IMG/VR virus record: IMGVR_UViG_3300047498_000076 | Location: 1-50,790 of that record | Direction: 5' to 3' (one strand) | Origin: a virus | DNA: 50,790 nt | Shown here: positions 7,313-50,790 of the stretch, piece by piece | Layout of the letters: every line of letters starts with the position of its first letter | How positions within the stretch are numbered: the stretch's first letter is position 1 | Position numbers and translations under genes: made by a program | Notes under the pieces: model-generated | What the model saw: the letters and a program-made list of their open reading frames with translations, nothing else | Database searches by the model: none | What the model was told of the DNA's origin: nothing

Positions 7313-8560
7313 TTAGATGGTGAACACGTCGCCGACGGTTCCCGCCTGCACGTTAGTAGCGATGACGTGGAGGCCAGGCACCACGTTGACAGGAATGAAG
7401 ACGTCGAAGCGGCTCCGGTCGGAGGCGTTCCGCTGGACCTGGACGAGCGGCGAGAGCCCGGACACGTTCTGGAACATGCCCTGGTCCTCGAAGGCCGACG
7501 CGAGCCGGATGATCTCGGACCGCGTCAGGTTCGCCTCGCCGATCGAGGCCTTCTCGTTCGTGAAGTCGGGCTGGTTGAAGCGCGCCACGACCGACTTCCG
7601 GAAGAAGTAGAGGACCTGGAAGTCCTGCACGTCGTAGTAGGCGGTCACGGCCGTCACGCCGTCGCCGGTCGTGAGGCGTGCGGTCACCGACCGGACGATC
7701 GCGACGTCGCCGTTGGCGAGCACGCGGAGCGGGGTGTAGCCCTGGTTCAGCGCGCTCTCGGACTCGAGCCTTGCGCCGACCGTGATCCAGTCGGACATGA
7801 GGGCCGGGGCCGCCACGTCTCCGATCACGTTGTTGTCGACCGGGTTGAAGGGCACGGCGTTGGCGCCGAGGATCCCGGCGTAGGCCGCTGCCATCTCGCC
7901 GATCGAGTAGGCCGGCGCGTTCGCGCCGGTCGAGGTGTCGCGCAGCCAGGGCAGCGTGATGAACTGGGTGTCGTACTTGAAGAGGGTCGATGGGTCGGTC
8001 ACCGCGCGGTTGAAGGCGACGGCGATCGTCCCGTACTGGCCGTTCTGCACGCGCGTGGCGCCGGACATGGCCTCGGCCTGGGCGATCAGCTGGTTAGTGA
8101 GCGTCTGGTTCTGGCTGTCGAACGGCGAGACGATGAACTCGGCCTCGAACTTGTCGCAGGCGGCAAGCGCGGCCGGGGTGCCGGACACGCTCGCCGGGCC
8201 GAAATTGACGTCGGCCTGCTGCAGGGGCACGCAGGTGATCATCGGGAAGTTGGATGCGGCGACGGTCTCGTTCGCCTGGATGCAGGCGATGACCATCTTG
8301 GCGAGCTCGGAGCCAGCGCCGAACTTCGCGTTCGCCTCGGTCGCCCCGGCGGTCGCGTCGCCGACGTTGTTGATCACGATGGGGACGTACGGCACCGCGG
8401 TGCCGGAGGCCACGCCCGAGACGGCCGGGCCGCCCGTGGGGCCCATCTGGCCGATCAGCGCGATCGTCTGGTTCGGGTTGGGGAGCCCGCCCTGCGCCGC
8501 GAAAGTGATCTCGGTGGGCCGAGCCGGAGTCTTCTGGAAGCCAATATCAGTCAAGGCCAT
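7313..8560 (-). CDS. Tail sheath protein
   Basis: A 415-residue protein beginning MALTDIGFQKTPARP. It has the Mu gpL-like sheath organisation: N-terminal strand, Rossmann-like central part with IALIGQMGPTG, and a C-terminal domain containing LTRSEIIRLASAFEDQGMFQN and a terminal strand for tube-sheath or sheath-sheath contact. This is the contractile layer of the tail and fixes the virion as myovirus-type. It overlaps the preceding gene by 14 bases. Confidence 0.88.
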   Translation of the reverse strand: MALTDIGFQKTPARPTEITFAAQGGLPNPNQTIALIGQMGPTGGPAVSGVASGTAVPYVPIVINNVGDATAGATEANAKFGAGSELAKMVIACIQANETVAASNFPMITCVPLQQADVNFGPASVSGTPAALAACDKFEAEFIVSPFDSQNQTLTNQLIAQAEAMSGATRVQNGQYGTIAVAFNRAVTDPSTLFKYDTQFITLPWLRDTSTGANAPAYSIGEMAAAYAGILGANAVPFNPVDNNVIGDVAAPALMSDWITVGARLESESALNQGYTPLRVLANGDVAIVRSVTARLTTGDGVTAVTAYYDVQDFQVLYFFRKSVVARFNQPDFTNEKASIGEANLTRSEIIRLASAFEDQGMFQNVSGLSPLVQVQRNASDRSRFDVFIPVNVVPGLHVIATNVQAGTVGDVFTI

Positions 8561-10804: not shown

Positions 10805-11926
10805 TCAGCTCGGGATGACGAGCGGCGTGCCGAGCACGTTCGCCGTCAGCACGTCGAAGCTGCGGTAGAGGTTGACCCCGCCGTACACACCGGAGGTGAT
10901 GTCGATGAAGGGGTTCTTCGGCCCCCCGCGGGTTCCGGGGGCGATGCACTCCTCGACGACGAGGAACTTCCCGAAGCCGGGGGACTCCATCGTGCCCGAG
11001 GCAAGGTTCAGGCCCTGCACGAACTCGCCGATGGTGTCGCCCGAGGGGAGCGTGCACTCGAAGAAGATGCCGCCGTCCGGGATGAAGTACACGGCGTTTC
11101 CGACCGTGACGCGGCCGTTGTTGGACGGGTTGGTCCCGGTGGAGACCGTCTCGTCCTGGAACCAGCCGTCGTAGATCACGACCTCAGGGCCGCCGGGGAT
11201 GAGGAACGCGATCAGCTTGGGAAGGTTCCACTCCGAGATGTTCGGGTTGGCGCCGATCGAGGACAGGTAGGCCTTGGTGTTCGCGTTCTCAAGCACCCAG
11301 CGCGCGGTGTTGGGGTTCATCACCAGGCGCTTGATGCGGTACTTGCGGAACGTCGCCAGGCCGCCGGTCACCCAGTAGCGGATGTCGGCGATGGGGTTCG
11401 CGGAGTTGTTCGGGTTGATCCCGTCGAGCGACCACACGGCGCCGAGCGGCACCGCGGTGTTCCCGGTCGGAATGCCGTAGCTGAACACGTTGCCCAAGTA
11501 CGGGAACGCGCCCTGGAAGATTGAGTTCCAGCGCAGGAGCTCGATGCGGGCCTCGAGCCGGCGGTTCATGCGGTCGATGTCGAGGTCGATGTACTGGCGG
11601 ATGCCGCGCTTCGACGGGTCGTTCTGGCCGACCTGGCGGAGGTGCAGGATCTTCTTTTCGTCGTAGTGGATCGACTCCTTGTACGCGGGGGGGGCGAACT
11701 CCTGGACCCGGGTTCCGAAGGACTGGATGTACTTCGGGTCGGTTCCGACCGCGTGCTCCATCGTCAGGCCGCCGGAGGCCTCGATGATCTCGACTCGGAC
11801 GCGGTCTACGGGGAGCGCGACCGACGGGATGTACTTGGCGCCGAGGTAGGTCGTCGGGTCGTTGACGATCTCCTGGACCAGCTTCTGGATGATCGAGGTG
11901 TACTCGTTTGTGAAGAATTCGTTCAT
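10805..11926 (-). CDS. Major capsid protein (gpE-like family)
   Basis: A 373-residue protein. FGTRVQEFAPPAYKESIHYDEKK resembles the phage capsid E family (lambda gpE-like), where an F-x-P-P strand precedes the E-loop/spine-helix region. RMNRRLEARIELLRWNSIF fits the conserved helix. It follows a decoration protein and a protease/scaffold gene, as in siphovirus and myovirus heads with HK97-fold capsids. A perfect terminator follows its stop. ATG with GGGGGA Shine-Dalgarno. Confidence 0.88.
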   Translation of the reverse strand: MNEFFTNEYTSIIQKLVQEIVNDPTTYLGAKYIPSVALPVDRVRVEIIEASGGLTMEHAVGTDPKYIQSFGTRVQEFAPPAYKESIHYDEKKILHLRQVGQNDPSKRGIRQYIDLDIDRMNRRLEARIELLRWNSIFQGAFPYLGNVFSYGIPTGNTAVPLGAVWSLDGINPNNSANPIADIRYWVTGGLATFRKYRIKRLVMNPNTARWVLENANTKAYLSSIGANPNISEWNLPKLIAFLIPGGPEVVIYDGWFQDETVSTGTNPSNNGRVTVGNAVYFIPDGGIFFECTLPSGDTIGEFVQGLNLASGTMESPGFGKFLVVEECIAPGTRGGPKNPFIDITSGVYGGVNLYRSFDVLTANVLGTPLVIPS

Positions 11927-16197: not shown

Positions 16198-16715
16198 TGG
16201 ATCCTCACGAGGTCGAGCTGAGAGGCAGCGGTGGTGACGGTGCTGGCGCTCGTCTGGCAGTAGACCTGGACCGCCTGCGAGCCGTTCACGGCGAAGATGG
16301 AGTTGAGGCCCTGCATGACGCGCTGGCTGCCCGACGTGAGAGTTCCGCCCGTGAAGGGCATGAACTTGCGCTGAGAGATCGTGAGCGCCGATCCGCCGAC
16401 GAAGTACTCGAGCGTCACCACCGTGCCGGCGTTGGCCGAGCTGAAGTCGCTGCTGTAGACGGCGAGGTAGGTGCCCGCGGCGGGCGTCACGGTCATGCCG
16501 GTCACCTGGCCGTTCGTCGTCGTGCAGGTGTAGGCGGTCGTCGACGAGGTCTCGGAGTAGCTCAGGCCCTGGGCCAATTGGCTGTTGGTGACGACCAGGG
16601 GCGACCCGTTCGTCGCGCCGAAGACCTGCTCGCCGATGAAGACGGAGGGGTTCACCACGCCCGCTGAGGCCGCTCTGGGCGCTAATAGGAGGAGCGCCAG
16701 TATCAGGCCCCTCAT
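16194..16715 (-). CDS. Secreted coat/fibre-like protein with Sec signal peptide
   Basis: A 173-residue protein with a clear type I signal peptide: MRGLILALLLLAPRAASA then G, with an A-x-A cleavage site. The mature part is Thr/Ser/Gly-rich and beta-like, with two cysteines (near YTCTT and VYCQT) that could form a disulfide outside the cytoplasm. The ATG overlaps the upstream stop (ATGA). It belongs to an island between portal and MuF-like genes. Function is unknown. A surface-displayed or periplasmic role is suggested by the signal. Confidence 0.75.
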   Translation of the reverse strand: MRGLILALLLLAPRAASAGVVNPSVFIGEQVFGATNGSPLVVTNSQLAQGLSYSETSSTTAYTCTTTNGQVTGMTVTPAAGTYLAVYSSDFSSANAGTVVTLEYFVGGSALTISQRKFMPFTGGTLTSGSQRVMQGLNSIFAVNGSQAVQVYCQTSASTVTTAASQLDLVRIQ

Positions 16716-17767
16716 TGGAACTCCTGGACCTGAAGCAGGGCCGCTCCGCCCGTCGTGATCGCGTTCACAGCGCCCGTGGTGAAACTCCACTGGTCCATGT
16801 TGAACACGCCGCCGGGGAGCAGCGTGAGCCCGGTCTGGTAGACCGGCGTCTGTCCGCCGAAGGCGATCGTGATCTGCTGGGAGCTCGCGTTCTGCAGGAT
16901 CAGGCCCTTGCGGTTGGCGTTCGCGCCCAGGACCGCGGTCGAGGTCGCATTGACCGAAATGTCTACTCCGGCGTTCGCCGTGATCGCCGACCGCGCGGTC
17001 GTCGGGATCGCGGTCTGGTCGGACGCGATGGCGACCGGCATGGACGCAGCCATCGGCATCTGCCCGAGCGTCGTGGGGATGCCCAAGTCGATGCTCGCGA
17101 GCGATGCGTTCGCCGTCGCCTGAAGCGCGGCCGTGGCCGCACCCGTGGGCAGCGCGCTCGCCGTGACGTTCGCGTTCAGTGACCCCGTCGTGGATGAGAG
17201 CGCGTTTCCGGAACCGTCCGAGAGCCACGCCGAGGCGAGCAGGTTCGCCGCGTTCAGCTGGTAGGCCATCGTAAAAGGGTTCGAGGCCACGCTCGCGCGG
17301 ACGACGACGTTCGCGGTGCCGCTCGTGTAGGACGAGAACTGCACCGTGTAGGTGCCGTATCCCTGCGGCGAGACGACGCGGTAGTTTCCTCCCGTGCTCA
17401 TGACGCTGCCCACGATCGCGGATGTGGCCGAGTTCTGGACGTAGTAGGTGCGCGAGCTGTAGGTGCCGACGCTGCTGATCGTGATGTTGCCGACGAACGT
17501 CCCGCCGATGTCGAGCGTGATCGAGCCGATCGCGTTCGCGGACGAGAGGGTGACGGCGCTCGCGAGGCCCGTGAGCGATCCCGAGGCGTTCAGGTCGTTT
17601 GATACCGTCGAGACCGAGTCGGTCGAGCTGCTCAGGGTCCAGTCGCGCGAGATGGGGTCGACGACGGTGCCTGCCGGGTTCTGGATCTGGGTCTGGAACT
17701 GCGGGGCCAGGTCGTTCGGCCCCGCCAGCGCCAGCGATGAGAGGAGGAGCAGGGGGAGTAGCCTCAT
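16712..17767 (-). CDS. Secreted beta-rich protein with Sec signal peptide
   Basis: A 351-residue protein beginning MRLLPLLLLSSLALA then GP, a short but convincing Sec signal with A-x-A type cleavage. The mature protein is Ser/Thr/Ala/Val-rich and predicted beta. The C-terminal 80 residues (ANRKGLILQNASSQQITIAF) resemble domains used in phage fibre or carbohydrate-contacting proteins. No cysteine-rich or catalytic motif. Translationally coupled with the next signal-peptide gene. Its presence in the head gene cluster is unusual. Confidence 0.72.
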   Translation of the reverse strand: MRLLPLLLLSSLALAGPNDLAPQFQTQIQNPAGTVVDPISRDWTLSSSTDSVSTVSNDLNASGSLTGLASAVTLSSANAIGSITLDIGGTFVGNITISSVGTYSSRTYYVQNSATSAIVGSVMSTGGNYRVVSPQGYGTYTVQFSSYTSGTANVVVRASVASNPFTMAYQLNAANLLASAWLSDGSGNALSSTTGSLNANVTASALPTGAATAALQATANASLASIDLGIPTTLGQMPMAASMPVAIASDQTAIPTTARSAITANAGVDISVNATSTAVLGANANRKGLILQNASSQQITIAFGGQTPVYQTGLTLLPGGVFNMDQWSFTTGAVNAITTGGAALLQVQEFQ

Positions 17768-17768
17768 A

Positions 17769-18347
17769 TTAGAACGGCAGCACCGCGAGGGTCGCGCTGA
17801 GGTCGGAGACCGTGCCGAGGTTGACGGCGCGGACCTGGAACACGGGGGTGTTCGCGGATGCGGGCACCATGAAGTAGTCGCTGCCGACGCCGATCGGTGC
17901 GCTGAACTCGCCCGGCCCGAGGATGGTCGAGTCGAGGACGACGAGCGATCCGCCGACGTCCGAGTAGACGAGCTGGAAGAGCGCGTCCCTGCGGCAGGTG
18001 ACCTTGCCGTTGAAGGCGCCGTAGCCCGAGGCCGCGACCGCCGGAACTGAGAGGACCGTCTGGTAGTTGGTGTAGTCGTTGGCCCCGGTGACGGCGAGCG
18101 CGCCCGCCACGCGGCCGTGGGCGCGGGATGGGACGTAGGTGACGGCGTCGGTGGTGACCTTGATGCGGCCCTGGGCGTCGAGCATCGGCAGGACGACGTT
18201 GCCGTTCACGTCCTGGAACGCGAAGCCGACGGAGCCGAAGACGAGCGTGGAGCTCGATCCGGGCTGGACGGAGGTCAGCGGAACGCCGACGCCCGCCAGG
18301 GACTGCGTGGTGCAGAAGACTTCTTGGACATCTATTGGAACGCTCAT
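17769..18347 (-). CDS. Beta-rich structural-like protein of unknown function
   Basis: A 192-residue protein without signal peptide, starting MSVPIDVQEVFCTTQ, with a predicted all-beta pattern (VLDSTILGPGEFSAPIGVGS). It lies directly after the portal-side gene and before the two exported proteins. Its content resembles head-fibre or decoration proteins, but I recognise no family. A GGGAGG Shine-Dalgarno precedes the ATG. Confidence 0.65.
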   Translation of the reverse strand: MSVPIDVQEVFCTTQSLAGVGVPLTSVQPGSSSTLVFGSVGFAFQDVNGNVVLPMLDAQGRIKVTTDAVTYVPSRAHGRVAGALAVTGANDYTNYQTVLSVPAVAASGYGAFNGKVTCRRDALFQLVYSDVGGSLVVLDSTILGPGEFSAPIGVGSDYFMVPASANTPVFQVRAVNLGTVSDLSATLAVLPF

Positions 18348-18883: not shown

Positions 18884-20527
18884 CTACCTTCCGGCCAGGC
18901 GCTTGAACACGTCCGCGATCCGTCCGAACATCTTCTTCTCATCGGCCTTGGGCTCTTCGGCTCCGCCATCGTCATCGCCGCCTTCGCCGTCCTCGCCGAT
19001 GGGGCTGAGCGCCTCAATCGGCGTGTCGCGCTCCTCGAAGCCGATGGCGTCGCGCATCTTGTTGAGGTCGTTCAGGTCCTGCTGGTCGATCACTCCGGAG
19101 TTGATGCCCTGCTCGAACACCTGCATGACCTTCTGGATCTCGTCCTGCGACAAATCGCGCTTGGAGAACGCGCCCAGGCCGTCCTTCTCCCAGTTCGCGC
19201 GGGGGAAGTTCAGCATCAGGATGTCGCGCACCCACTGCTTGAGCAGGATGTCCTCTAGGCCGGCGTTGATGCCGTCGAGGACCTTGTCGAAGGTCTTGGC
19301 GTGGACCTCGCCTAGGGCGTAGCCGCCCTGCCCGTCGCCGAAGATGAGCGCCGGGATCGTGAGCGCCCTCAGGATCGACTTGTTGCAGAACTCGAGCGCC
19401 GCGATGAAGTCGGCCGCGTTCGAGGACTGAGACAGGGCGTCGATCGTGTAGATCTCGCCCTTCTTGCCGGGCAGGTAGATCACCGAGTCGTTGTGCAGGT
19501 TCCGCATGGCGTTCTCGGCGGCCTTGCCGGGGTGGATCGCGGCGTGCGGGTTGCCGCGCGCGCCCGACTGGTTCGTCGGGTCGGGCAGGCGGGAGGGGTC
19601 GTAGATCGGCGCGTTCGGGTCGTAGTAGACGACGGTCAGCGGAGTGCCCTTGCGGTCGAGCGCGATCGCCATCATCTGCAGGATCGCGTCCTTCATCACG
19701 TAGTACTTGTAGCACCGGCGGAGGAGCGACCGCCCGTAGGGGCTCTGGAACTTCCCCTGCGCGTCGAAGGCGTAGTGGATGCACTTGGCCTTCGGTATGC
19801 GGATGGAGAGGTAGTTGAACGAGTTGGCGGTCCTTATCGGAAACGGCAGATCGCCCAGCTTAGCGAACACATCAGGGCGAGAGTTAGAGCCAGCCGCAAA
19901 GCCCAGCCCGGCAGTAGTGGAGCCGCCAAAATAACCAATGCCTCGGCCAAGCAGATAAGGATTAAAATTTCTCTGATACTGTAGGATCCCGTCAGAACTG
20001 ATCTCACCCGTGCGCTCCGTTTCAAATAGCAGTGTGGAGGGGGGCAGCGGGACGATGCGCTTCGGTATGAAGCCCAGCTCCGGGTCCTCCTGGAAAACCT
20101 TCTCGCCGACGTAGAAGCCCGCCCAGCTCGCCGACATGATCTCCTTCACCGTGTTCGAGAACCCCCCGTCGACGGCCGACAGCGCCTTGTTGACGTGGTC
20201 GGTGATCTCCTTGTTGGGGTGCTGGTACCTGCCGAGCCTTGCGGCCAGGCAGGTGGTCAGGAAGTCGACCCCGGATCCGATGGTGTCGTCGGTGTCGACC
20301 ATCCGCTTGAAGGTCTCGACCGAGACCGCGGAAGGGTTCTGGATGAACTTGTAGAACTGGTTGAAGAGGGCCGGTATGGGCGTGCCCCTCTGCTCCTTCA
20401 GGTCCTCGAGGCTCTCGATCTCGACGTGCCTGGCGTAGAGCATCTCCTCGAACTCGGAGTTGTCCAGGTACTGCGACATGTAGTCGTTCTCTGGCAGCAG
20501 CTCTTTTGCGTCCGGTGAGTTGGGCAT
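18884..20527 (-). CDS. Portal protein, DUF935 / Mu gp29-like
   Basis: A 547-residue protein with the portal pattern of Mu-like phages: an N-terminal segment up to VSVETFKRMVDTDDTIGSGV, a central region with KCIHYAFDAQGKFQSPYGRS and LLRRCYKYYVMKDAIL, and LTIPALIFGDGQGGYALGE in the wing/stem region. The C-terminus is acidic (GEDGEGGDDDGGAEEP) and ends in a basic helix. The portal forms the dodecameric DNA gate. A stretch at about 19850-20035 has lower GC and different codons than the rest, suggesting recombination. Confidence 0.85.
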   Translation of the reverse strand: MPNSPDAKELLPENDYMSQYLDNSEFEEMLYARHVEIESLEDLKEQRGTPIPALFNQFYKFIQNPSAVSVETFKRMVDTDDTIGSGVDFLTTCLAARLGRYQHPNKEITDHVNKALSAVDGGFSNTVKEIMSASWAGFYVGEKVFQEDPELGFIPKRIVPLPPSTLLFETERTGEISSDGILQYQRNFNPYLLGRGIGYFGGSTTAGLGFAAGSNSRPDVFAKLGDLPFPIRTANSFNYLSIRIPKAKCIHYAFDAQGKFQSPYGRSLLRRCYKYYVMKDAILQMMAIALDRKGTPLTVVYYDPNAPIYDPSRLPDPTNQSGARGNPHAAIHPGKAAENAMRNLHNDSVIYLPGKKGEIYTIDALSQSSNAADFIAALEFCNKSILRALTIPALIFGDGQGGYALGEVHAKTFDKVLDGINAGLEDILLKQWVRDILMLNFPRANWEKDGLGAFSKRDLSQDEIQKVMQVFEQGINSGVIDQQDLNDLNKMRDAIGFEERDTPIEALSPIGEDGEGGDDDGGAEEPKADEKKMFGRIADVFKRLAGR

Positions 20528-22262: not shown

Positions 22263-23690
22263 TTACTCAGACGTTAGCAGCTGGTGGGCCTGGGAGGAAG
22301 TGGGCGCCACGATCATCGCAGGCATGCCCGGCGGGAAGAGCTTCCAGACGGCGTAGCCCGCGCCGTCTGAGGCGTGGGTCAGCGTCTTGTTGCCGCCGTC
22401 GTCGAGCTTCCCCTGGCCCTTTAGGTTCGTGTGCATCTTCCAGCCGACCATCTTAACGTCCGAGTCGAAGAGCGGGCAGGCCGACGGGCTGTAGGTCATC
22501 TGGGTCACGCCGCGCGCGTCGCGCGCCATGCGGTTCATGTTCTCGATCCGGTTCCTGACGAGCGGGTTGTTGCTCTGATCCGTGTCCACGCTGAACACGC
22601 AGCCGTGCTCAGCCAGGACCTCAGAGATCTGCGCGTAGTCGTGCCGCCCGGCGTTCGAGGTGGTCGCGCGAGCGCCTGATCGATCCCCGTAGATCCGGTA
22701 TACAAAACCGGGATAGCGACTGAGCAAGTAGAACGCCATCTCAGGGGAAGAAGCTCTGGATCGGGAAAGCTCTCCGAACCAGTGGATGTGGTTCGCCCAG
22801 AACTGGCCTTGGGGTCCATAGATCGGTGGGCCTATCTGCCCCACCATCCAAACGTGCGGGGAAGGGTCGAAGTTAAAGTCGCAACCGACAATGAGGGGAC
22901 GATCAGGGCTAGGCACGGCGTCCCCCCAGGGAGCAACGTGGCTGCGATTCCAGCCGCCGAAAGAATAATAAGCGCGGCCGCCCCGCACGTTGACGTGCTG
23001 GGCATAGATCTCCTGCTGAGCCATGAGCTCCGAGTAGGAGGCGAGCATGGTATCAAGATACTTCTGCGTGTGGATCCCGAGCCGGACGGCCTCGGTCGTG
23101 GGCACGTGCAGGCTCCCATAAAGTCGCTGCCCGGGTCGAGCACATGCAAAGCGCTTATATCCCCAGTCCTCGCCGTTGGTGGTAGAACCCAGCAGGCCTC
23201 GTGGGTCTCGGTAGCGCCGCATGCGAGACAGGATGACGTCATGCGTGTCCTGAGGAGTATCCCGCGTTTCATCGACTGAGTACCATCCGAACTGGATACC
23301 TCTGAGCGCATCGGCATCCGATAGCACCCTTGTAAACGCGTTGGCAACGCGCTTCTTTCCGACCCGAACCGAGATGACGTTCCGATAGTTGGGCAGCACC
23401 AGGGACGGCGTCCCCCAGGCCGCTGGCGGGCGCTTGTTGATCGTGTACTCGAAGCCGTAGGCCTCGAGCCAGACGAAGAGCTCGCGGAGCGTCGCCTGCG
23501 ACAGCTGGTCGTAGGAGTTTGCGCCGATGAAGCCGGGCACGTCGGGCCGCTCGGTGAACATGCGGATGTCGAAGTGGGCGAGCGAGTAGGTCTTGCCGCA
23601 CCCGACGCCCCCGAAAAAGCCGGTGTGGTCGTAGGGCGAGTAGACGGCCGCCATCTGGTAGGGAGTGAGGCTGAACCTAATCCGACTCAA
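22263..23690 (-). CDS. terL: Terminase large subunit
   Basis: A 475-residue packaging motor. Walker A is GGVGCGKT (27-34), Walker B ends in Asp140-Glu141 (SVDET), and the C-terminal RNase H-like nuclease has Asp272 (VGCDFNF), Asp336 (IYGDRSG) and Asp442 (HASDGAGYA). All key acidic residues are present. The apparent start is TTG at 23690, overlapping the upstream gene by 14 bases. Codon choice in the middle (about 22670-23390) looks different from the flanks. Confidence 0.92.
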   Translation of the reverse strand: MSRIRFSLTPYQMAAVYSPYDHTGFFGGVGCGKTYSLAHFDIRMFTERPDVPGFIGANSYDQLSQATLRELFVWLEAYGFEYTINKRPPAAWGTPSLVLPNYRNVISVRVGKKRVANAFTRVLSDADALRGIQFGWYSVDETRDTPQDTHDVILSRMRRYRDPRGLLGSTTNGEDWGYKRFACARPGQRLYGSLHVPTTEAVRLGIHTQKYLDTMLASYSELMAQQEIYAQHVNVRGGRAYYSFGGWNRSHVAPWGDAVPSPDRPLIVGCDFNFDPSPHVWMVGQIGPPIYGPQGQFWANHIHWFGELSRSRASSPEMAFYLLSRYPGFVYRIYGDRSGARATTSNAGRHDYAQISEVLAEHGCVFSVDTDQSNNPLVRNRIENMNRMARDARGVTQMTYSPSACPLFDSDVKMVGWKMHTNLKGQGKLDDGGNKTLTHASDGAGYAVWKLFPPGMPAMIVAPTSSQAHQLLTSE

Positions 23691-25579: not shown

Positions 25580-25603
25580 GGGATGAATCCTACGTGAAGA
25601 AGG

Positions 25604-25678
25604 CGACCCCGGCAAGGCTCGAACTTGCGTCCTGCTGGGTGTCGGTCCCAGCCGCTCTACCCACTGAGCTACGGGGTC
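25604..25678 (-). tRNA. tRNA-like gene with unusual anticodon arm
   Basis: A cloverleaf can be drawn: acceptor GACCCCG/CGGGGTC (7 bp), D stem GCTC/GAGC with GG in the loop, T arm GCAAG-TTCGAGC-CTTGC (perfect) and discriminator G. CCA is not encoded. The anticodon arm pairs best as CTGGG/CCCAG with loop ACCGACA. That loop has no T at position 33, and the centre reads CGA. Serine is not expected because there is no long variable arm. Two extra bases lie between the D and T arms compared with standard. Amino-acid identity is left open. Confidence 0.7.
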
Positions 25679-42217: not shown

Positions 42218-42363
42218 CCCTGCTCCTTGCTGATGACCTTCTTCTTGGCCCACTTGGGCTGGGGCAGGTGCCAGCCCGCGACGGCGGCCGCGATCGGCGC
42301 CAGGAGCTTGACCCAGGCGCGGCCCTCGGCCGACGCCTTGAGCGACCACTCGCGCCAGGTCAC
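42214..42363 (-). CDS. 49-residue small protein with amphipathic/membrane segment
   Basis: GTG start overlapping the lipoprotein stop (GTGA), ending in ATGA overlap with the glycosyltransferase. The middle is hydrophobic (VKLLAPIAAAVAGWHL), the end basic (KWAKKKVISKEQG). It could be a membrane peptide of the lysis set. Too short for a family. Confidence 0.5.
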   Translation of the reverse strand: MTWREWSLKASAEGRAWVKLLAPIAAAVAGWHLPQPKWAKKKVISKEQG

Positions 42364-42833
42364 GGGCGCACCCTGAGCGCCTTGAGCGCGGACTGGACCT
42401 GGTAGCTGCAGCGGTCGCCGAGCTCGCGGCAGGCCTCCTGGGCCGCCGTCGTGAGCGCGACGTAGTCCGGGTCGGAGAGGATGACGCTCGCGCCGCGCGC
42501 GGGCAGCACGGCCGGGACGCCGCGCGACTGGTCGTCCGCGCAGGCCTCGATCCCGTTCTCGGTGACGGTCTTGCCGTCCGGGGCGAGCGCTTGGCCCGCG
42601 GGCACGCAGGTGCGGTCCTGGGGCTGGGCGTTAAGCAGGTCCAGGATCTCGGTCGTCGAGACCGGGTAGGCCGGGACCGCGTAAACGGTGTGGGCGCACA
42701 TGCCGCCCTGGGTGATGAGCCCCTGGACGGCGCACTTGTGGCCGTCCGGGATCGTCACGCACGCGCTAAGAGCCCATGCGGCCGAGAGTAGCGAAGCTAG
42801 CGAGAGCGTTCTGAAGGGCCTGCTGGTACTCAC
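42360..42833 (-). CDS. Lipoprotein of the lysis region
   Basis: A 157-residue protein with a lipoprotein signal: basic start, hydrophobic core, lipobox ending LSAC (Cys25). The mature part has several Cys and could be an outer-membrane lipoprotein, perhaps spanin-like, but no Pro-rich or coiled-coil spanin pattern is present. The start is GTG at 42833 with AAAGGAG, inside the end of the preceding gene (68-base overlap). Confidence 0.65.
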   Translation of the reverse strand: MSTSRPFRTLSLASLLSAAWALSACVTIPDGHKCAVQGLITQGGMCAHTVYAVPAYPVSTTEILDLLNAQPQDRTCVPAGQALAPDGKTVTENGIEACADDQSRGVPAVLPARGASVILSDPDYVALTTAAQEACRELGDRCSYQVQSALKALRVRP

Positions 42834-43467: not shown

Positions 43468-44001
43468 TCAGGAAACCGCAACGCCGCAGATGCCGGCGAG
43501 GTCGTGCAGGCGGTTGAGCCAGCCCGCGAGGAACCGCCGCTGGCTCGGGTCCTTGGCGACGATGCCGACGAAGCGGTCGTGGCAGGCGCTGAGCAGCGCC
43601 GTGACGAAGGGCTTCTCGGGCTGGGCGTTAACCGCTGCGCGGGTCATGGGCCCCATGACGCCGTCGATGAGCGGGCAGCCCGCGCACCGCTGGGCGATGT
43701 GCGTGACGGTTCCGGTTCCCTGGAGCACGCCCTGGTCGAAGAGGCAGAGGGCGACGTCCTGGCTCTCGATCAGGTCGAGGCCCAGCGCGTCCCAGTAGAG
43801 GCGCTTGTAGATCGCGCGCGCGAGGTCGGCCGTGCAGGCCCTGATCTCCTCGTCGGTGACCGCGTGGCCGTAGTACTCGACGAAGTCCTCGCGGACGAGG
43901 CCCATGTTGGTGAGGCCGCCGTGGTCGTTTGGATCGTCCGAAATGCCGCCCTCGTGGCGCAGGGTGATCGGCAGGGCAAAGTCAAAGTTAGTCGTCGTCA
44001 T
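43468..44001 (-). CDS. Endolysin, GH108 lysozyme with peptidoglycan-binding domain
   Basis: A 177-residue protein. LRHEGGISDDPNDHGGLTNM holds the GH108 catalytic Glu17 and its EGG-x-D-x-N-D-x-GG-x-T pattern. The C-terminal half (LIDGVMGPMTRAAV onward) is a peptidoglycan-binding fold. Cuts host cell wall at lysis. It overlaps the holin-like gene by 14 bases, the classic lysis cassette order. Confidence 0.9.
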   Translation of the reverse strand: MTTTNFDFALPITLRHEGGISDDPNDHGGLTNMGLVREDFVEYYGHAVTDEEIRACTADLARAIYKRLYWDALGLDLIESQDVALCLFDQGVLQGTGTVTHIAQRCAGCPLIDGVMGPMTRAAVNAQPEKPFVTALLSACHDRFVGIVAKDPSQRRFLAGWLNRLHDLAGICGVAVS

Positions 44002-44383
44002 CTTCGTTTACCCCGGAGGCAATGCTGCTCGCCTTTGGAAGAAGGTCGTTGTTCTCGAGAGCGGTATAGCAGGCCGAGACCAGGTTTCCCAGCTTGTGTT
44101 GGCGCTTCCTGATCTTCATGATCCACTCGTAGTTTTCGCGCTGGTTTCTCTGGATATCGGCGACCACTCCGAGCTGCTGCTTCTCGAAAGAATTCATCCG
44201 CTCATCGAGCCGCGTGATGTGAATCGTCAGCGTCGTCTGGACCTGGTTCGATTCTTTGAGCTCGATCGTGTTGTCCTTCAGACCGTCTTTAAGGGACTTG
44301 ATCTGCCAGGTAAGCAGCACTCCGATGACCACCACGAGGAGGTTCAACACCCACATGGTGATGTCGTAGGAGTGCGCTTCCAT
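43988..44383 (-). CDS. Holin-like membrane protein with coiled coil
   Basis: A 131-residue protein: one N-terminal membrane helix (MWVLNLLVVVIGVLLTW), then a long charged coiled-coil region (LDERMNSFEKQQLG) and an acidic tail (GVNEDDDD). One membrane helix with coiled coil suits a holin or i-spanin-like role; adjacency to the endolysin favours lysis. GC is lower than in most of the window. Confidence 0.65.
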   Translation of the reverse strand: MEAHSYDITMWVLNLLVVVIGVLLTWQIKSLKDGLKDNTIELKESNQVQTTLTIHITRLDERMNSFEKQQLGVVADIQRNQRENYEWIMKIRKRQHKLGNLVSACYTALENNDLLPKASSIASGVNEDDDD

Positions 44384-44386
44384 GGA

Positions 44387-46609
44387 TTATTTAGGGCCGT
44401 CGCAAGTGAAAAAGACCGTGTCGTCAATTGCCGAGCTGGAACCGATGGTCGTCTGTTCGATATCGATGCCCGAGGTCGTCGCAAGATTGACCACGTGGTA
44501 AAGCCCGTTGTAACCCGAGCCCTGACAGAGCGGTGGAGAACTGAACATTCCCGCCACGAAGTGGACGGTGTAAAATCCCGTCGATCCACGCGTCACGCTC
44601 GAGACCCAGCTCGAACTCGGCTGGTAAATCGTGCATGGGGATGACGTGCAAGGCGAGCCCTGGGACGAAGACCCAGCGAACGATAGGTACTCGTGGCGGG
44701 TCGTCCCCGCGTTCCCGCTGATCACGCTATTCGGGATGACCAGCGAGGCCGCGCCGAAGTAGGCCGTGACCTTGATCAGACCGGAGCCGCCCGCGCCGCC
44801 AATCGTTCCGCTTGTTCCCGCTGCGCCCGAAGTTCCGGCAATACCGACAGAATAGGCATAGCTCGACAAGGGGAATGGAACCGAGGCATTTACGTAGGCG
44901 CCACTGCCGCCGCCAGCCCCAGAAATACTCGTACCCGTGGACCCAGCCCCGCCGCCACCAGACCCAGAATTTGTCGATGCCGCACTTCCGGCCGTAGAAA
45001 CAAGTCCTCCGCCACCAGCGCCGCCAAAAGCAGAAGCCGCTCCGGGTCCTCCTGCGGCATTCGCTATTTCGCTTGAGGCCGTTCCGCAGCCGCCAGGAAT
45101 GGTGATCCCGGTCGCTCCCGTGCCAATCGAGCCCGCGCTTCCGCATCCTGGATTTGGATTTCCTCCGCCTGTCGCGCCGGGGGCAGACAAAAACGAGGTT
45201 CCGAAGGTCGTGTTTCCGCCAGTCCCGCCAGTCCCGCCAGTACCTCCATTTCCTGCGCCGCTCCCGCCGCCGCCGCCGCCGACCATGAGGATCTCAAGGC
45301 GAGTCGCGCCCGGAGGCGTGATGTACGTACCCGAGCCCGAGAGATAGGTCGTGACCTGCGGCTGACTCATCTGGTTGATGGGAGTTGCGGTCTGGGATGG
45401 GAACGGAAAATAGAGAACGGAAATCGAAACCGTTTCGGTAGAGCCTTCGGAAGTGCCGAGATAAATATTTGCAGTCGATCCCGCCGCCGCACGGCCTTCC
45501 GCTTGAAATGTCAGGTTGGTTTGAGCGGTCGAGTAGCAAAAATCCGAAGAAAACGTAGCCATCGGATTTTGAATGGCCGAGCCGGAATAAATGCTGACCG
45601 CGTTGTCTACGCCGTTATTGGTGCCGTCATTGAAAGTAAAATAGGCGTAGGTGTTTCCCGACGACGTTCCCGCACCACCGTTGAAGGTGACGCGGTAACA
45701 GCCGGGCGCAGCACTGGGAACCACGACCTCTGGAAGGTTGGTGCCGGGAGCCTTGACCACCGCACCGACGCTTGCGGTCGGCGAAGGAATGGTGGAGCTG
45801 ACTCCAAACGAGCTATAGCTAGAGTTTGCGCTGTTAGTCCAGGAATGCAGCCCAGTGTTCCAGGTGAGAACGCCAAGATTTTGCGCTTGAGGACCGGCAA
45901 CGAAGATCGTACCGCCCGCCGAGAAGTCATCAACCTTGAGCGACGCAGAAGGAACGCCCGTGCTCGGAGCCGCAAACTTCACGATGACTTGCGGGGTGCC
46001 GGTCGACGGGCACAAGAATGAAAGCGGAGGCGTCAGCGCGGCGGGAACGCCCGAGACCGGAAGGAGCGACTCGCTCGCGAGCACGTTGCCCGAGCCGTCG
46101 GTCACGCTGAACACGTAGTTGCTCGTGGCCTCGGTCGTAGAATAATACATCTGCGCTTGGCAGCTTTGACCCTGAAGGACAGCGGGCACCGACACGGCCG
46201 CAGTGACGACTTTTTCGCTCGTTGCCGTCGGCGTGAAAATTGCCGAGTACGTCCCATCCAAAGGCGACGTTGAGCTAGTTACGAAATGAGCCGGGGTGTC
46301 GGCCGTGTAACTCGAAGTCGTATTGCTTTCAAAAGTCGAGTTGGCAATCTTAAGCGGAACACCCGTTCCGCCGCCGCCCGAGCCGCCAAGGTTTCCGCCA
46401 GAAATTGCGGTCGAGAGCTGCTGGTTCAGGTTGTTCGCCGTGACGTAGATCTTGGTGTCGTTGATCAGCTGGGACATCGACCCGCCGGCGTTCGTCAGGT
46501 CCGTCACGGACTTCACGTCCTCGTTCTGGATCTTGCCGACCGACCAGGCCAGGTTGCTCGTCAGGAGAGTCGTTATCGCGATCAGGGAGAGCAGTCTATT
46601 CATGCGCAT
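44387..46609 (-). CDS. Exported Gly-rich tail fibre / adhesin-like protein
   Basis: A 740-residue protein with an apparent Sec signal (MNRLLSLIAITTLLTSNLAW). The first part is beta-rich fibre-like. Residues about 430-610 form a Gly-rich domain (LEILMVGGGGGGSGAG and many GG, GT repeats), as in phage adhesins whose poly-glycine helices recognise receptors. The end is a beta domain with Cys pairs. It is a host-range candidate. Much of the gene is lower in GC than the core genes. Confidence 0.75.
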   Translation of the reverse strand: MRMNRLLSLIAITTLLTSNLAWSVGKIQNEDVKSVTDLTNAGGSMSQLINDTKIYVTANNLNQQLSTAISGGNLGGSGGGGTGVPLKIANSTFESNTTSSYTADTPAHFVTSSTSPLDGTYSAIFTPTATSEKVVTAAVSVPAVLQGQSCQAQMYYSTTEATSNYVFSVTDGSGNVLASESLLPVSGVPAALTPPLSFLCPSTGTPQVIVKFAAPSTGVPSASLKVDDFSAGGTIFVAGPQAQNLGVLTWNTGLHSWTNSANSSYSSFGVSSTIPSPTASVGAVVKAPGTNLPEVVVPSAAPGCYRVTFNGGAGTSSGNTYAYFTFNDGTNNGVDNAVSIYSGSAIQNPMATFSSDFCYSTAQTNLTFQAEGRAAAGSTANIYLGTSEGSTETVSISVLYFPFPSQTATPINQMSQPQVTTYLSGSGTYITPPGATRLEILMVGGGGGGSGAGNGGTGGTGGTGGNTTFGTSFLSAPGATGGGNPNPGCGSAGSIGTGATGITIPGGCGTASSEIANAAGGPGAASAFGGAGGGGLVSTAGSAASTNSGSGGGGAGSTGTSISGAGGGSGAYVNASVPFPLSSYAYSVGIAGTSGAAGTSGTIGGAGGSGLIKVTAYFGAASLVIPNSVISGNAGTTRHEYLSFAGSSSQGSPCTSSPCTIYQPSSSWVSSVTRGSTGFYTVHFVAGMFSSPPLCQGSGYNGLYHVVNLATTSGIDIEQTTIGSSSAIDDTVFFTCDGPK

Positions 46610-46623
46610 CTTTCGGGTCCTCG

Positions 46624-46992
46624 TCAGTATTTAGAGTACATCGCCCGGAGCTTTTGGCCAAGGGCTGGGGCGGTCGTCGTCGTGATCGTCGCCCCTGATA
46701 TCGTGTAGTCGGTTCCCTGGATCAGGATGATCCCGTCCTGGTTCAGCTCGACCGTGTTGGATGACCCCGGTGTGTTCGCGAGCGTGAAGGTCGCGTTCGT
46801 CCCGTTGACCGTGCCTGAGGGCGTCTCCTGGACATACCCCGACGAAATCGTCGCCGTGCCCGTGGCAGCCGGGAGCGTGACCGTCGAGGTATGCCCAGAG
46901 GAGATGAGTGCGTCCGCGTCAATCGTGCGGCCGGCGCTCGCCTGCGCAAGCTGGGGGATGAGCAGTGTGATGAGCAGCGCGAGCGTTCTCAT
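46624..46992 (-). CDS. Small exported fibre-domain protein
   Basis: A 122-residue protein: Sec signal MRTLALLITLLIPQLAQA then SAGRTID. The C-terminal 70 residues share the repeated domain found twice in the 638-residue fibre (P-x-G-x-V-N-G-T-N-x-x-F-T-L, then G-x-D-Y, then G-Q-K-L-R-A-M-Y). Probably a fibre or tip module that is also exported, or one whose hydrophobic N-terminus serves another purpose. Confidence 0.7.
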   Translation of the reverse strand: MRTLALLITLLIPQLAQASAGRTIDADALISSGHTSTVTLPAATGTATISSGYVQETPSGTVNGTNATFTLANTPGSSNTVELNQDGIILIQGTDYTISGATITTTTAPALGQKLRAMYSKY

Positions 46993-46995
46993 GGG

Positions 46996-47868
46996 TTAGC
47001 GCCTTGCGTCTTCGACCCAGAGGCCGCGGGTGATGTCGCAGTGGAGGATGATGGTGCTGTCGAGGCCGCCGACCCAGTTTCCGTTGAGGCTCAGGCCGCT
47101 GCTGGCTAGGTTCGACTGGTCCTGGAGCGTCACGGTGTTCGTGGCGCTGGTCGCGTGGACCTTGAGCTGCTGGCCGTCCGCGGTGCAAGCCGTGACGGAT
47201 GGCGTTTTCGTCACGGTGACTGCGCCGCCAGATCCTACGACCCAGACCTCGTTGAGGTAGGTGAGGCCGCTCAGCGACACGCCGCCGCTCGCGGTCACGG
47301 ACTCGGCCGATCCGGAGCCGCCGTTCAGCGCGGGTGCTGCGCCCGTGCCGTTCGACGCCGCGGTCACGAGGCCCTTCGCGTTCACCGTGATGTTGGCGTT
47401 CGTGAAAGACCCGACGTTCGAGTTCACGGTCGCGAGCGTCGCCGCCGCCCCGCTCGTCGTCACGTCGCCCGTGAGCGGTCCCGCCTGCTTCGAGTTGAAG
47501 GTCGACCAGTCGGTCGAGGTGAGCGCGCCCGTGGTGGACGAGCTCGCCGTGCCGAGCGAGAGCGCCTGGCCCGTGAGGGACAGGCCGTTCGCCGTTCCCA
47601 GGGTCACGTCGCCCGAGTTCGACCCGGAAAGCACCGAGCCGTTCCCGATCGCGCCGACAGGGATGTTCGTCGCCGTGTTCAAGCTGAAGTTGAGCGTCTT
47701 GTTCGTCAGCGCCTGGGTGGACGCGATGCCCGCGATGGTGTCGGTCGTCGTCGGCAGCGTCAGGACGGCGGCGCCGTTCGTGATCTGAGCGCCGTCGAGC
47801 GTTCGCGGGGAGTTCGCGAACGCCGGAGCGGCGATCAGGGTTGCGAGGAGCAGGAATAGGGACTTCAT
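46996..47868 (-). CDS. Exported tail fibre-like protein
   Basis: A 290-residue protein: Sec signal MKSLFLLLATLIAAPAFA then NSP. The mature part has the phage-fibre phrase TLPTTTDTIAGIASTQALTN and many Gly/Ser/Thr repeats. The C-terminal 90 residues, ending LWVEDARR, match the end of the upstream 638-residue protein (NWSEDSRR). Shared tips suggest a duplicated receptor-contact or trimerisation domain. Confidence 0.75.
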   Translation of the reverse strand: MKSLFLLLATLIAAPAFANSPRTLDGAQITNGAAVLTLPTTTDTIAGIASTQALTNKTLNFSLNTATNIPVGAIGNGSVLSGSNSGDVTLGTANGLSLTGQALSLGTASSSTTGALTSTDWSTFNSKQAGPLTGDVTTSGAAATLATVNSNVGSFTNANITVNAKGLVTAASNGTGAAPALNGGSGSAESVTASGGVSLSGLTYLNEVWVVGSGGAVTVTKTPSVTACTADGQQLKVHATSATNTVTLQDQSNLASSGLSLNGNWVGGLDSTIILHCDITRGLWVEDARR

Positions 47869-47871
47869 AGG

Positions 47872-49788
47872 TTACCTCCGTGAGTCCTCGGACCAGTTCA
47901 CACCGTCCCAGGATAGTTCGATTGTTGATCCCTCGATCGAGGCGGGGTCGCCCGTCGCGGGCCAGGGGCCATTGAGGTCGAGTCCGTCGCCGTCATTGAA
48001 CACGGGGAAGTTCGTCCCGTCCACGGCCTTGATCTTGACGACCTGGCCGACGGACGACCCGGCCGAGATCTGCGGGCTTTTCGTCACGACCTGCGCGCCC
48101 GATGGGCTCCGCACGAAATAGACCTGGAGCGGGTCGGACGTGGTCATGATACCGGAGGCGGGGTTGACGACTACGGGGGAGGCCTTCGACCCGTGCGGCG
48201 TGTAGCCCGCGGATCCGGATGCGCCTCCGCCGCCGCCCAAAAGGACGCCTAGGTAGAGGTACTTCGAGTAGATGCTCTGGCCGGGCTGGGGGATGAAGTC
48301 GGGGTTCGTGATCGTGAACGAGTTTCCGACGAGCGTGAAGTCGGTGAGTTCCAGGTGGTTCTCGTCGATCCAGACGTCGAGGCTGTCGGGGTCGACCGGG
48401 ACGCTCGAGAGCTGGAAGTCGGCGTTCGAACCGTCGACGGCGCCCGTCGGGATCTCCTGCTTGAAGCGCGCGGTCTGGACGCCCGACGATGGGTTGTTCG
48501 AGACGGCGCCGTAGACCAGGTATTTGGCCCAGACCGACTGGCCCGGCGCGGGCACCGCGCCCGGGTCGGTGATCGTGACCTCGTCGCCGTTGATTTCGTA
48601 CTGCTGGTCGGTGAGCAGGTTCTGGTCGACGTAGAAGTTGACGCTCTCGGGATCGGACGGCGTGCTCGACAGCGTGAAGACCGTGTTCGTTCCGTTGACC
48701 GCGCCGCGCGGCGTTTCGCCCCTGTACTTGGCCGCCGCCGCGCCGGAGCCCAGGAACGGCCGGCCGTCGAAGACCTGCACGTCCGAAACCGCGCCCGCGT
48801 TCGACGTGATGATGACGTAGGCGATGCCGAAGTTCCCGTCGGGAGCCGGGAGCGAACCCGGGCCCGAGAAGACCTGGTTCTGGATCGATGCCAGGCACTG
48901 ATCATAGGTCCCGTTGACGTCGCCGAAATTGAAGTTCAGCGTGTCCTTCTGGGTCAGCGTGACGACGCAGACGACCGACTTGTTGCCGGCCGGGGTCGTC
49001 GGGCCGAATGACGGCGTGGTCGAGTCGCCGCCCGAGACGACGCCGGTCGAGAAGTCGACGAACGTGTCCTCGGGCGTGAAGCTGCCCGCCGTGAGCGGGA
49101 AGAGGCTCGGCGTGAGCCGCCCCGGGTAGGAGAAGCACAGGGGCGCAGAGCCCACGTTCTGCGATGGCTTGATGCCCATGACCGTCGAGGACGATCGGTA
49201 GGGCCGCATCCGGTTGTCGAACCGGACCTGGTTCTGCGCGATCAGCGAGTTCACGCCGATGCTCTCCCTCGCCTCGAAGTCGAGCATGGATGAGGTGATC
49301 GAAGCCGCCCCTGGTGGTATGATCAGGCCGCACAGGATGACGTCGTTCGGCCCCTTGGACGGGTACTCCGGGCTCGACGACGGCGTCCCGGGGATGACCA
49401 TGACGGCCGCCTCCTGGAGCTGGTTGAGCGGTACTTGGGTGAACGGGGTTGTGGGGCTGTTAATCAGGTTCGAGTCGGTCGGCATCGGGGTGATGACGAC
49501 GAGTGAGCGCGTGATGAGCGACGGGTCGGCGCTCGGGATCGAGACGGTCTCAGACGACCCCAGGACGTCGAGGTACCCGCTCGCGCTGATCGCGATGCCC
49601 GCGGCGACGGAGACGGCCATGCCCGAGGCGGGCGCGACCGACAGGCCCCGGAGGACCGCGGCGCCCATGACGCCCTCGCCGATCCCGCGCGCGGTCTCGA
49701 CCATCGCCTCCTGGAAAGCGGTCATGTCGACGGCGCGGACCTTGTATCGGGAGTACCAGTAGAAGAAAGCGGTTGCGTCATTCGCCAT
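47872..49788 (-). CDS. Tail fibre / baseplate appendage protein with repeated domains
   Basis: A 638-residue protein without signal. N-terminal part (VETARGIGEGVMGAAVLRGL) resembles baseplate-attached fibre starts. Two tandem domains (about residues 360-510) share P-x-G-A-V-x-G-x-N, D-P-x-S-x, and P-G-Q-S. A C-terminal tip (ASIEGSTIELSWDGVNWSED) matches the 290-residue exported protein. Directly follows the gp48-like baseplate gene, so it is the likely fibre anchor. Confidence 0.75.
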   Translation of the reverse strand: MANDATAFFYWYSRYKVRAVDMTAFQEAMVETARGIGEGVMGAAVLRGLSVAPASGMAVSVAAGIAISASGYLDVLGSSETVSIPSADPSLITRSLVVITPMPTDSNLINSPTTPFTQVPLNQLQEAAVMVIPGTPSSSPEYPSKGPNDVILCGLIIPPGAASITSSMLDFEARESIGVNSLIAQNQVRFDNRMRPYRSSSTVMGIKPSQNVGSAPLCFSYPGRLTPSLFPLTAGSFTPEDTFVDFSTGVVSGGDSTTPSFGPTTPAGNKSVVCVVTLTQKDTLNFNFGDVNGTYDQCLASIQNQVFSGPGSLPAPDGNFGIAYVIITSNAGAVSDVQVFDGRPFLGSGAAAAKYRGETPRGAVNGTNTVFTLSSTPSDPESVNFYVDQNLLTDQQYEINGDEVTITDPGAVPAPGQSVWAKYLVYGAVSNNPSSGVQTARFKQEIPTGAVDGSNADFQLSSVPVDPDSLDVWIDENHLELTDFTLVGNSFTITNPDFIPQPGQSIYSKYLYLGVLLGGGGGASGSAGYTPHGSKASPVVVNPASGIMTTSDPLQVYFVRSPSGAQVVTKSPQISAGSSVGQVVKIKAVDGTNFPVFNDGDGLDLNGPWPATGDPASIEGSTIELSWDGVNWSEDSRR

Positions 49789-49790
49789 GG

Positions 49791-50492
49791 TTAGCAGTTC
49801 TCCATCAGGATCATATCAGCTGGGTCCAATCCATCAATCACTTGATGCTGACTCCTCGCCGGTTCCGCCGCGAGCAGGGCCGTCTCAAGGTCGCTCGACT
49901 CTTGCGCGGTCAGGGTGTAGCCGTAGATCCGGACCTCGTAGAAGTACGCCTCCTTCTGATACTCGGCGTACTCGGCGTCGGTCAAGCCGTAGTCGGCGGC
50001 CCCTTTCGAGCAGAGGTCCGGGCCCACGAGGATGAGGTTGTTGAACTGGTTCAGGATCGTCGAGTAGTCGAGCGTCGACACGTCGAGCACCCAGCCCGCG
50101 CACCCGCAGCCCCAGGGGACGATCTCGACCTGGACCGACGGGTCGACGACCGTGTAGACGGTGGCGAGGATGTCGGTGGCCGTCGTGCGCCGCTGCGACC
50201 GGATCTTCGCGATGACCTTCGCCTGGCGGTTGGCGAGGGTGTCCGACGAGCTCAGCTGCTGGCCCAGGTAGAGCTCCTCGAAAAGCGGCTGGGCGGAGTC
50301 GTCGCAGTAGTTCGGAAAGTAGTTGTCGTAGACGGCCTCCTGGTTCGCGTACGCGTCGCCCACGATCGAGGCCGTGGCGTCCGAGTCGGCCGTCGAGTAG
50401 AACGCTGTCGCGGGTCCGTCCGGGTAGACGCCGTCCGGCAGCTCCCTCTGGATGATCCGGTAGACCTGCTGCTGGGTCAGGAATATCGGCAT
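49791..50492 (-). CDS. Baseplate protein, Mu gp48 / YmfQ-like
   Basis: A 233-residue protein between baseplate J and the fibre, the place of Mu gp48 (tail protein I-like). TLANRQAKVIAKIRSQRRTT has the N-R-x-A-x-V-x-A-x-x-R pattern of these proteins, where the adapter joins wedge to fibre. It starts 1 base after the J stop. Several Cys (WGCGCAGWVL). Confidence 0.75.
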   Translation of the reverse strand: MPIFLTQQQVYRIIQRELPDGVYPDGPATAFYSTADSDATASIVGDAYANQEAVYDNYFPNYCDDSAQPLFEELYLGQQLSSSDTLANRQAKVIAKIRSQRRTTATDILATVYTVVDPSVQVEIVPWGCGCAGWVLDVSTLDYSTILNQFNNLILVGPDLCSKGAADYGLTDAEYAEYQKEAYFYEVRIYGYTLTAQESSDLETALLAAEPARSQHQVIDGLDPADMILMENC

Positions 50493-50790
50493 CTACATGG
50501 ACACCACTGTTATGGTTCCCGGGGTCGGGACCTCGTTCGGCAGCATGCCGCGGTTGTAGCCGCTCGAGGAGAGCGGCAGCACCTGGCGGTCAAGCAGGAT
50601 CGGGATCGTTCCGGTCTCGACTGACTCGCTCGAGAGCATGACGTCGATCGTCTGCTCGATGACGGACGCGACGATGTAGCCGGACGCGCCGATCTGCGTT
50701 CCGCCGACCGGGGTCTTGTAGATCGCGCGCATGACCTCCCTCTGGACGAGCTGGTCCTGGGTCAGCGTCTGGCCCGACAGGATCGTCGAG
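50493..50790 (-). CDS. Baseplate J-like protein, C-terminal part (cut by window edge)
   Basis: Open from the right edge to a TAG at 50493. STILSGQTLTQDQLVQREVM and the final LPNEVPTPGTITVVSM are typical of the J-like C-terminus, whose end usually has P-x-x-x-P-x-P-G-x-I-x-V. It is followed at once by the gp48-like gene, the Mu order gp47-gp48. An internal Met at 50732 is not believed to be the start. Confidence 0.8.
   Translation of the reverse strand, partial: STILSGQTLTQDQLVQREVMRAIYKTPVGGTQIGASGYIVASVIEQTIDVMLSSESVETGTIPILLDRQVLPLSSSGYNRGMLPNEVPTPGTITVVSM

Follow-up and report, generated by a model that had tools for sequence, protein, structure and literature searches.

Why would a phage place what look like Sec signal peptides (SPs) on fibre proteins, which are commonly treated as virion parts assembled in the cytoplasm? 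The question is raised by a 50,790-base virus record (IMGVR_UViG_3300047498_000076; GC 65.5%), analyzed over its whole length and called the window here, in which three consecutive minus-strand genes encode fibre-like proteins with Sec-type N termini. These genes, at 46996..47868, 46624..46992 and 44387..46609, are named below by their first coordinate. Trio-type fibres are very likely exported, as judged from sequence, and SP fibre genes, frequently arranged in tandem, are found again in relatives of the window and in unrelated phages. The best explanation as a whole, to which we give a probability of about 0.55, is that they are late-made exported fibres acting like the mosaic adhesive trimer (MAT) adhesins of Bdellovibrio or like receptor blockers of the Llp type.

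Predicted Sec signals on consecutive fibre genes

N termini were ranked with a home-made score for Sec signals cleaved by signal peptidase I (SPase I), built on 29 E. coli signals, which score 9.7–19.0 and were also its training set. Among all tiled open reading frames (ORFs) of the window, ranks 1–4 fell to 16712 (10.6), 46624 (10.4), 46996 (8.8) and 44387 (4.4). The value for 46996 is slightly under the range of the E. coli positives and that for 44387 well under it; as the non-tiled window ORFs, of which there are 214 and most are spurious, reached up to 8.7, the score of 44387 is by itself not decisive, and its signal is called because homologues in the 175-kb phage G024 carry strong signals ahead of a matching mature start (GKIQNED, GRLQNED or GRIQGAD). 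In the four control phages, a score of at least 7 was reached by only 5 of 213 genes, so three in a row are unlikely by chance. A first, sequence-only reading had proposed three consecutive fibres with Sec-type N termini and a Gly/Ser/Thr-rich character. The positions hold, and the summed Gly, Ser and Thr content is 37–42% compared to 21% in other window genes; the trio is real, although such an arrangement is not special to this genome and a fourth SP gene (16712..17767, minus strand) accompanies it.

Each trio protein has a basic N-terminal end followed by a hydrophobic core and an Ala-x-Ala-like site; a lipobox or SPase II signal is absent from all three, and the sites are of SPase I type. 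In 46996 (290 amino acids (aa)), the predicted signal MKSLFLLLATLIAAPAFA (47815..47868, minus strand) is followed by NSP, with cleavage expected before N19, and then by an RTLDGxxITN/LTLPTTTDT...LTNKT module and a C-terminal β domain that contains C228 and C277. The gene starts 3 nt past its upstream neighbor behind a strong Shine–Dalgarno (SD) sequence, GGAGG, and has homologues at L012:4798-5535, L142:5125-6564, L126:12684-13769 and L229:8327-9874 (L numbers denote contigs and G numbers genomes). The small 46624 protein (122 aa; homologues at L012:5538, L142:6588, L126:13789 and L153:7560) opens with the predicted signal MRTLALLITLLIPQLAQA (46939..46992, minus strand), then SAG, with cleavage expected before S19; its ETPxGxVNGTNxxFTL stretch has a similar counterpart inside the adjoining SP-less fibre, 47872. 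The large 44387 protein (740 aa, ten Cys in the mature part) carries the predicted signal MRMNRLLSLIAITTLLTSNLAWS (46541..46609, minus strand), then VGK, its cleavage site being placed by comparison with G024, and its mature N terminus, VGKIQNEDVKSVTDLT, is similar to those of L229:12036 and L229:13483. In the head module, the structural-type protein 16712 begins with the predicted signal MRLLPLLLLSSLALA (17723..17767, minus strand), then GPN, and its C-terminal part resembles L015:959-1474. It adjoins an SP-less gene (17769..18347, minus strand) whose L015 and L003 homologues resemble the adjacent SP gene, as tandem paralogues.

About 36 SP fibre genes were compiled, drawn from relatives, from phages without a detected virion protein in common with the window (G020, G024 and G025) and from the isolated Bdellovibrio phage phi1422 (two genes); 30 of the signals entered the cleavage count and 34 starts the SD count. 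At the best cleavage site, Ala occupies position −1 in 27 of 30 signals and position −3 in 21 of 30, although the scorer favors such sites. An SD match of at least four bases precedes 28 of 34 signal starts compared to 4 of 34 next in-frame starts; these next starts are, at the median, 42 codons further downstream and mostly lack an SD. For 29 of the 34 signal starts, the upstream gene is no more than 25 nt away. Pooled over the three families, identity is 38% in the signals and 51% in the following 35 residues; the signal sequence drifts while its composition stays constant. A signal is no general trait of fibres with the LTNKT-type module, as 77 of 79 in other phages lack one and only two carry one.

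Folding in an oxidizing compartment should favor even Cys numbers in mature parts. In the first set of mature SP proteins, 18 counts were even and 6 odd. The reference, pooled from other genes that have homologues across the genomes compared, stood at 184:234 (p = 0.003). Extending the set gave 23 even and 7 odd, which differs both from that reference (p = 0.0005) and from the 10:28 of SP-less fibres of other phages with the same module (p = 4e-5). These p values are optimistic, since each orthologue entered as a count of its own and the proteins had been selected partly by eye. The bias is disulphide-like and holds for the population, not for each protein. High Cys density was also considered as a sign of export and rejected (0.81 versus 0.94 per 100 aa in other genes, no difference; it differs only from SP-less fibres, at 0.13), and parity was used instead. 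The Cys228/Cys277 pair of 46996 is retained in its SP-bearing orthologues in G001 and G020, while SP-less homologues in the same three genomes have Gly and Trp at these positions; among them is 47872, whose C-terminal domain is homologous to that of 46996.

The mature SP proteins contain fibre-type repeats and tip domains (PF07484, PF13884 and phrog tail-fibre matches in relatives). In the AlphaFold model of 46996, confidence was limited to the last ~95 residues, and the model of the head-side protein was poor. A PDB fold search gave no match below E 0.001, PDB sequence searches with the window fibres gave no informative match, and the 46996 fold weakly matched predicted phage proteins, including tail fibres, in a viral library. 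Taken together, starts, SPase I-type motifs, signal drift, presence or absence of signals between homologues and Cys parity support export well, the main idea of the sequence-only reading.

Recurrence in relatives and in phages with unrelated virions

Relatives of the window were collected by capsid and sheath searches (GC about 41–65%). G001 encodes the same three SP fibres consecutively together with two SP genes in its head module, and further SP genes were found in G005, G008, G013, G016 and G018. On the conserved-gene tree the trait is scattered across the group; no SP fibre was found in the clade of G009, G010, G014, G015, G017 and G019 (branch support 100), several other rows of the tree being fragments. 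Homologous domains may bear a signal in one protein and lack it in another (L008:4716 versus the 18359 type; L015:959 versus L015:374), and the fibre adjacent to gp48 has a signal in G005 and G016 and none in G019. Some SP cassettes are placed after the lysis genes (G013 and G020). One SP protein has a tail collar domain, and Peptidase_S74 occurs in G018 only (L138:2831-4327), with no S74 domain in the window.

The recurrence extends to phages in which no virion protein in common with the window was detected. G020 (53.6 kb) has no detectable homologue of the window sheath, capsid, portal or terminase, yet it encodes two SP fibres, which belong to the families of 46996 and 46624, plus three SP genes at other places. 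G024 encodes four consecutive SP fibres covering all three families, and G025 one. Across these phages, 19–25 of 33–35 post-signal residues of the 46996 family are identical (54–71%), compared to 5–10 of 18–21 signal residues. Because the post-signal region is conserved while the virion proteins show no relationship at the sensitivity of these searches, it likely meets a host component rather than the baseplate. The sequence-only reading had raised envelope display, decoys, released adhesins or periplasmic assembly; this conservation favors a host-side partner.

Several other predicted exported proteins were seen in these genomes. In G018 (L136:12176-12670) and G020 (L144:10826-11689), lipoprotein signals (MIAC and ATGC) precede collagen-like GPTGPTGPQ or NGTNGTNG repeats, and both are, from their sequences, predicted additional exported fibre-like phage proteins. 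The clade lacking SP fibres encodes exported proteins of other kinds in G009 and G010, named by eye as one subtilase-like and one outer-membrane-barrel-like protein and as lipoproteins of CAP-domain type (L121:3595-5019, L121:6665-7381, L121:2844-3494 and L146:10836-11450). An FxxGFxKTA-like motif opens several unrelated proteins in G020 (L143 and L144) and G010 (L146:19183-19551). A small SP protein of G024 with CxxCH (L236:3253-3600) resembles a phage-carried c-type cytochrome.

The window itself is of myovirus type, with genes for tail sheath (7313-8560), major head protein (10805-11926), portal (18884-20527) and terminase (22263-23690). A baseplate-J-like gene seems to be divided across the record ends (1-840 and 50493-50789, minus strand), so the record probably represents a near-complete genome that is circularly permuted. 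Its closest isolated relatives are distant, with 25% TerL identity and scarcely any match to sheath and capsid. The late region, on the minus strand, runs from a Mu Gp48-like baseplate gene (49791..50492; PF10076, E 5e-5, under the curated cut-off) through 47872..49788, an SP-less tail fibre or baseplate-proximal protein with the conserved N terminus FYxYxRYxWxAxDFTAFQ, to 46996, 46624 and 44387. After the trio follow a candidate Rz-like spanin (43988..44383; phrog_739, E 4e-4), an endolysin with glycosyl hydrolase 108 and PG_binding_3 domain matches (43468..44001) and lipoprotein genes, one of which (42360..42833, lipobox LSAC) is by position a candidate outer spanin and points to a diderm host. 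A baseplate query run singly against IMG/VR gave no match. A tRNA-Ser(CGA) gene lies at 25602-25678 (minus strand).

Possible roles and hosts of the exported fibres

In the explanation that we favor, the trio and 16712 would be expressed late and along with the virion genes, as their operon position suggests. Cleavable Sec/SPase I signals would send these proteins into a diderm periplasm, where many may form disulphides; the short post-signal region would anchor the fibre to a component of the host envelope, and the C-terminal parts would be variable adhesin or tip domains of phage type, an arrangement like that of the exported Bdellovibrio MAT fibres. The exported fibres could occupy envelope sites on the infected cell and on its debris, such that sister or progeny virions would not be lost there, a task that in T5 falls to the exported lipoprotein Llp; a role on the prey side or the bdelloplast side is also possible. 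Receptor occupancy is the most plausible single use, and we put it forward tentatively. More speculative, and doubtful, is the idea of a transferable exported-fibre cassette, harbored by phages of predatory bacteria, that re-dresses the predator envelope or the bdelloplast interior, its products being counterparts of prey-recognition fibres with a shared post-signal anchor and a changed tip.

A possible link to predatory hosts comes from isolated phages. phi1422, a Bdellovibrio bacteriovorus phage listed as lytic (PMC3391216), has exactly two genes that score above 6 (NC_019525): gp68 (614 aa, eight Cys), immediately after its tail fibre gene, and gp75 (170 aa, two Cys). Both are annotated as hypothetical, and no sequence homology to window proteins was found. 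The phi1422-related dwarf myoviruses Aeromonas 56, ZF40, CP-T1 and PhiPLPE, which infect Aeromonas, Pectobacterium, Vibrio and Iodobacter, all have signal-less fibres. phi1422 heads the matches listed for the G005 helicase (2222 records), and a lysin-like gene next to the G024 fibres matches only Bdellovibrio phages in INPHARED. The protein, with a hydrophobic anchor and a Pro-rich linker, is common to G024 (L229:16056-16997) and three Bdellovibrio phages (L245:1-828, L251:6592-7476 and L252:21158-22102); as a marker of Bdellovibrio phages it was discarded, being exclusive to them in INPHARED and not in IMG/VR. Gene sharing with isolated Bdellovibrio phages, beyond functions that are common anyway, is good for G005 and G024, for which a Bdellovibrionota-like host is probable, and is not direct for the window, whose host may perhaps be a Bdellovibrionota-like predator. 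Querying INPHARED and PLSDB with fibres of the 46996 type yielded no clue to the host. A Bacteroidales host, suggested by the metagenome-assembled genome label of contig L015, on which this phage group is present, was rejected: 53% of L015 genes have SD matches of at least five bases (random, 7%), strong SD use is untypical of Bacteroidota, and the contig is probably mis-binned.

Several observations weigh against this picture. The SP set was picked partly by eye after the pattern had been seen and is phylogenetically non-independent, and SP-bearing 46996-type proteins of G013 have Gly and Trp in place of the Cys pair. A late operon position speaks against a role in prey attachment by the same cell. 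Two of the three Bdellovibrio tailed phages examined, phi1402 and MAC3UK, are without SP fibres; the window has no direct host link, and its GC content of 65.5% greatly exceeds the 44% of phi1422. The G024-type lysin has relatives of 30–37% identity with other architectures in five contigs (L255, L256 and L258-L260), in which no SP-fibre cassette was seen.

The main rival, which we consider unlikely, is that these are virion fibres with a periplasmic step, being exported, folded and disulphide-bonded before joining virions at lysis. SP genes do adjoin baseplate or head genes, the G005 and G016 signal precedes a KITQLP/EITALP module that forms the N terminus of SP-less fibres in G019 and of phi1422 gp67, and the tail collar and Peptidase_S74 domains fit as well. 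However, the FYxYxRYxW N terminus is confined to the 47872 type and absent from the window SP fibres, the post-signal region is common to phages with unrelated virions, and some cassettes follow the lysis genes. Less probable still are cargo adhesins, host-type fibre genes carried by the phage that would modify the infected predator's surface, including perhaps its prey recognition. This reading is favored by the exported phage-like MAT fibres with which Bdellovibrio recognizes prey (PMC10769870), by cassettes in unrelated phages and by the exported collagen-like lipoproteins of some relatives, but the genes lie inside late structural and lysis operons in the same orientation, no integrase was found among the genes scanned and phi1422 is listed as lytic.

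Docking through N termini is usual for fibres, and the sequence-only reading had offered as its alternative that the hydrophobic N terminus docks into the baseplate; that it is no signal and serves virion assembly by docking or by tethering to a membrane is very improbable given the n/h/c signal pattern, Ala at −1 and −3, drift at constant composition, presence or absence between homologues and Cys parity, and given signals on head-module proteins, in cassettes behind lysis genes and in phages without detected homologous virion proteins. Start codons in high-GC phage DNA are often misjudged, but the chance that the hydrophobic stretches are upstream noise and the true proteins begin later is negligible given SD sequences and tight spacing at the signal starts, with mostly SD-less next starts and a signal position conserved in homologues.

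Comparison with known exported fibres and exclusion proteins

A recurrent set of SP fibres across unrelated virions suggests that some phages use fibres as exported tools, whose genes would otherwise be filed in annotation as ordinary tail fibres. A literature search of incomplete coverage turned up no description of fibres of this class. Should the host prove to be a Bdellovibrio-like predator, the set would link phage fibres to the predator's own exported MAT fibres.

MAT proteins, which serve Bdellovibrio in prey recognition, are exported adhesins that resemble phage fibres; their N-terminal domain is invariant and their tips vary (PMC10769870). The present fibres share with them the signal peptide, a conserved region directly after it, a phage-fibre-like body, apparently variable tips and sometimes an S74 end (here in G018), but are phage-encoded among late genes, often much shorter and known here from sequence. 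Of the MAT hallmark, an SP plus a conserved N-terminal domain of ~130 aa, the signal is present, and PDB sequence searches, in which no MAT N-terminal sequence was compared, gave no MAT match; MATs are encoded by and displayed on the Bdellovibrio cell. The T5 protein Llp, whose gene lies beside that of the receptor-binding protein (RBP), excludes further phage by shielding the receptor; it is exported and contains a disulphide (PMC9586334). Like Llp/Cor, the SP fibres are phage-encoded, exported by prediction and near an RBP gene, and the Llp disulphide is paralleled by the disulphide-like Cys bias; Llp differs in that it is made early, is a small lipoprotein of the SPase II type and does not resemble the RBP, whereas the present proteins have SPase I-type signals on fibre domains and occur several per genome among late genes. 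As one defining feature of each differs, the SP fibres are not classed as MATs or as Llp/Cor. Their mature domains are of the kind found in caudoviricete tail fibres (LTNKT repeats, tail collar and S74), which are ordinarily signal-less. A likeness in an isolated phage is offered by phi1422 gp68 and gp75, which are SP-bearing, Cys-even and fibre-like, and phi1422 makes the idea testable in a cultured system.

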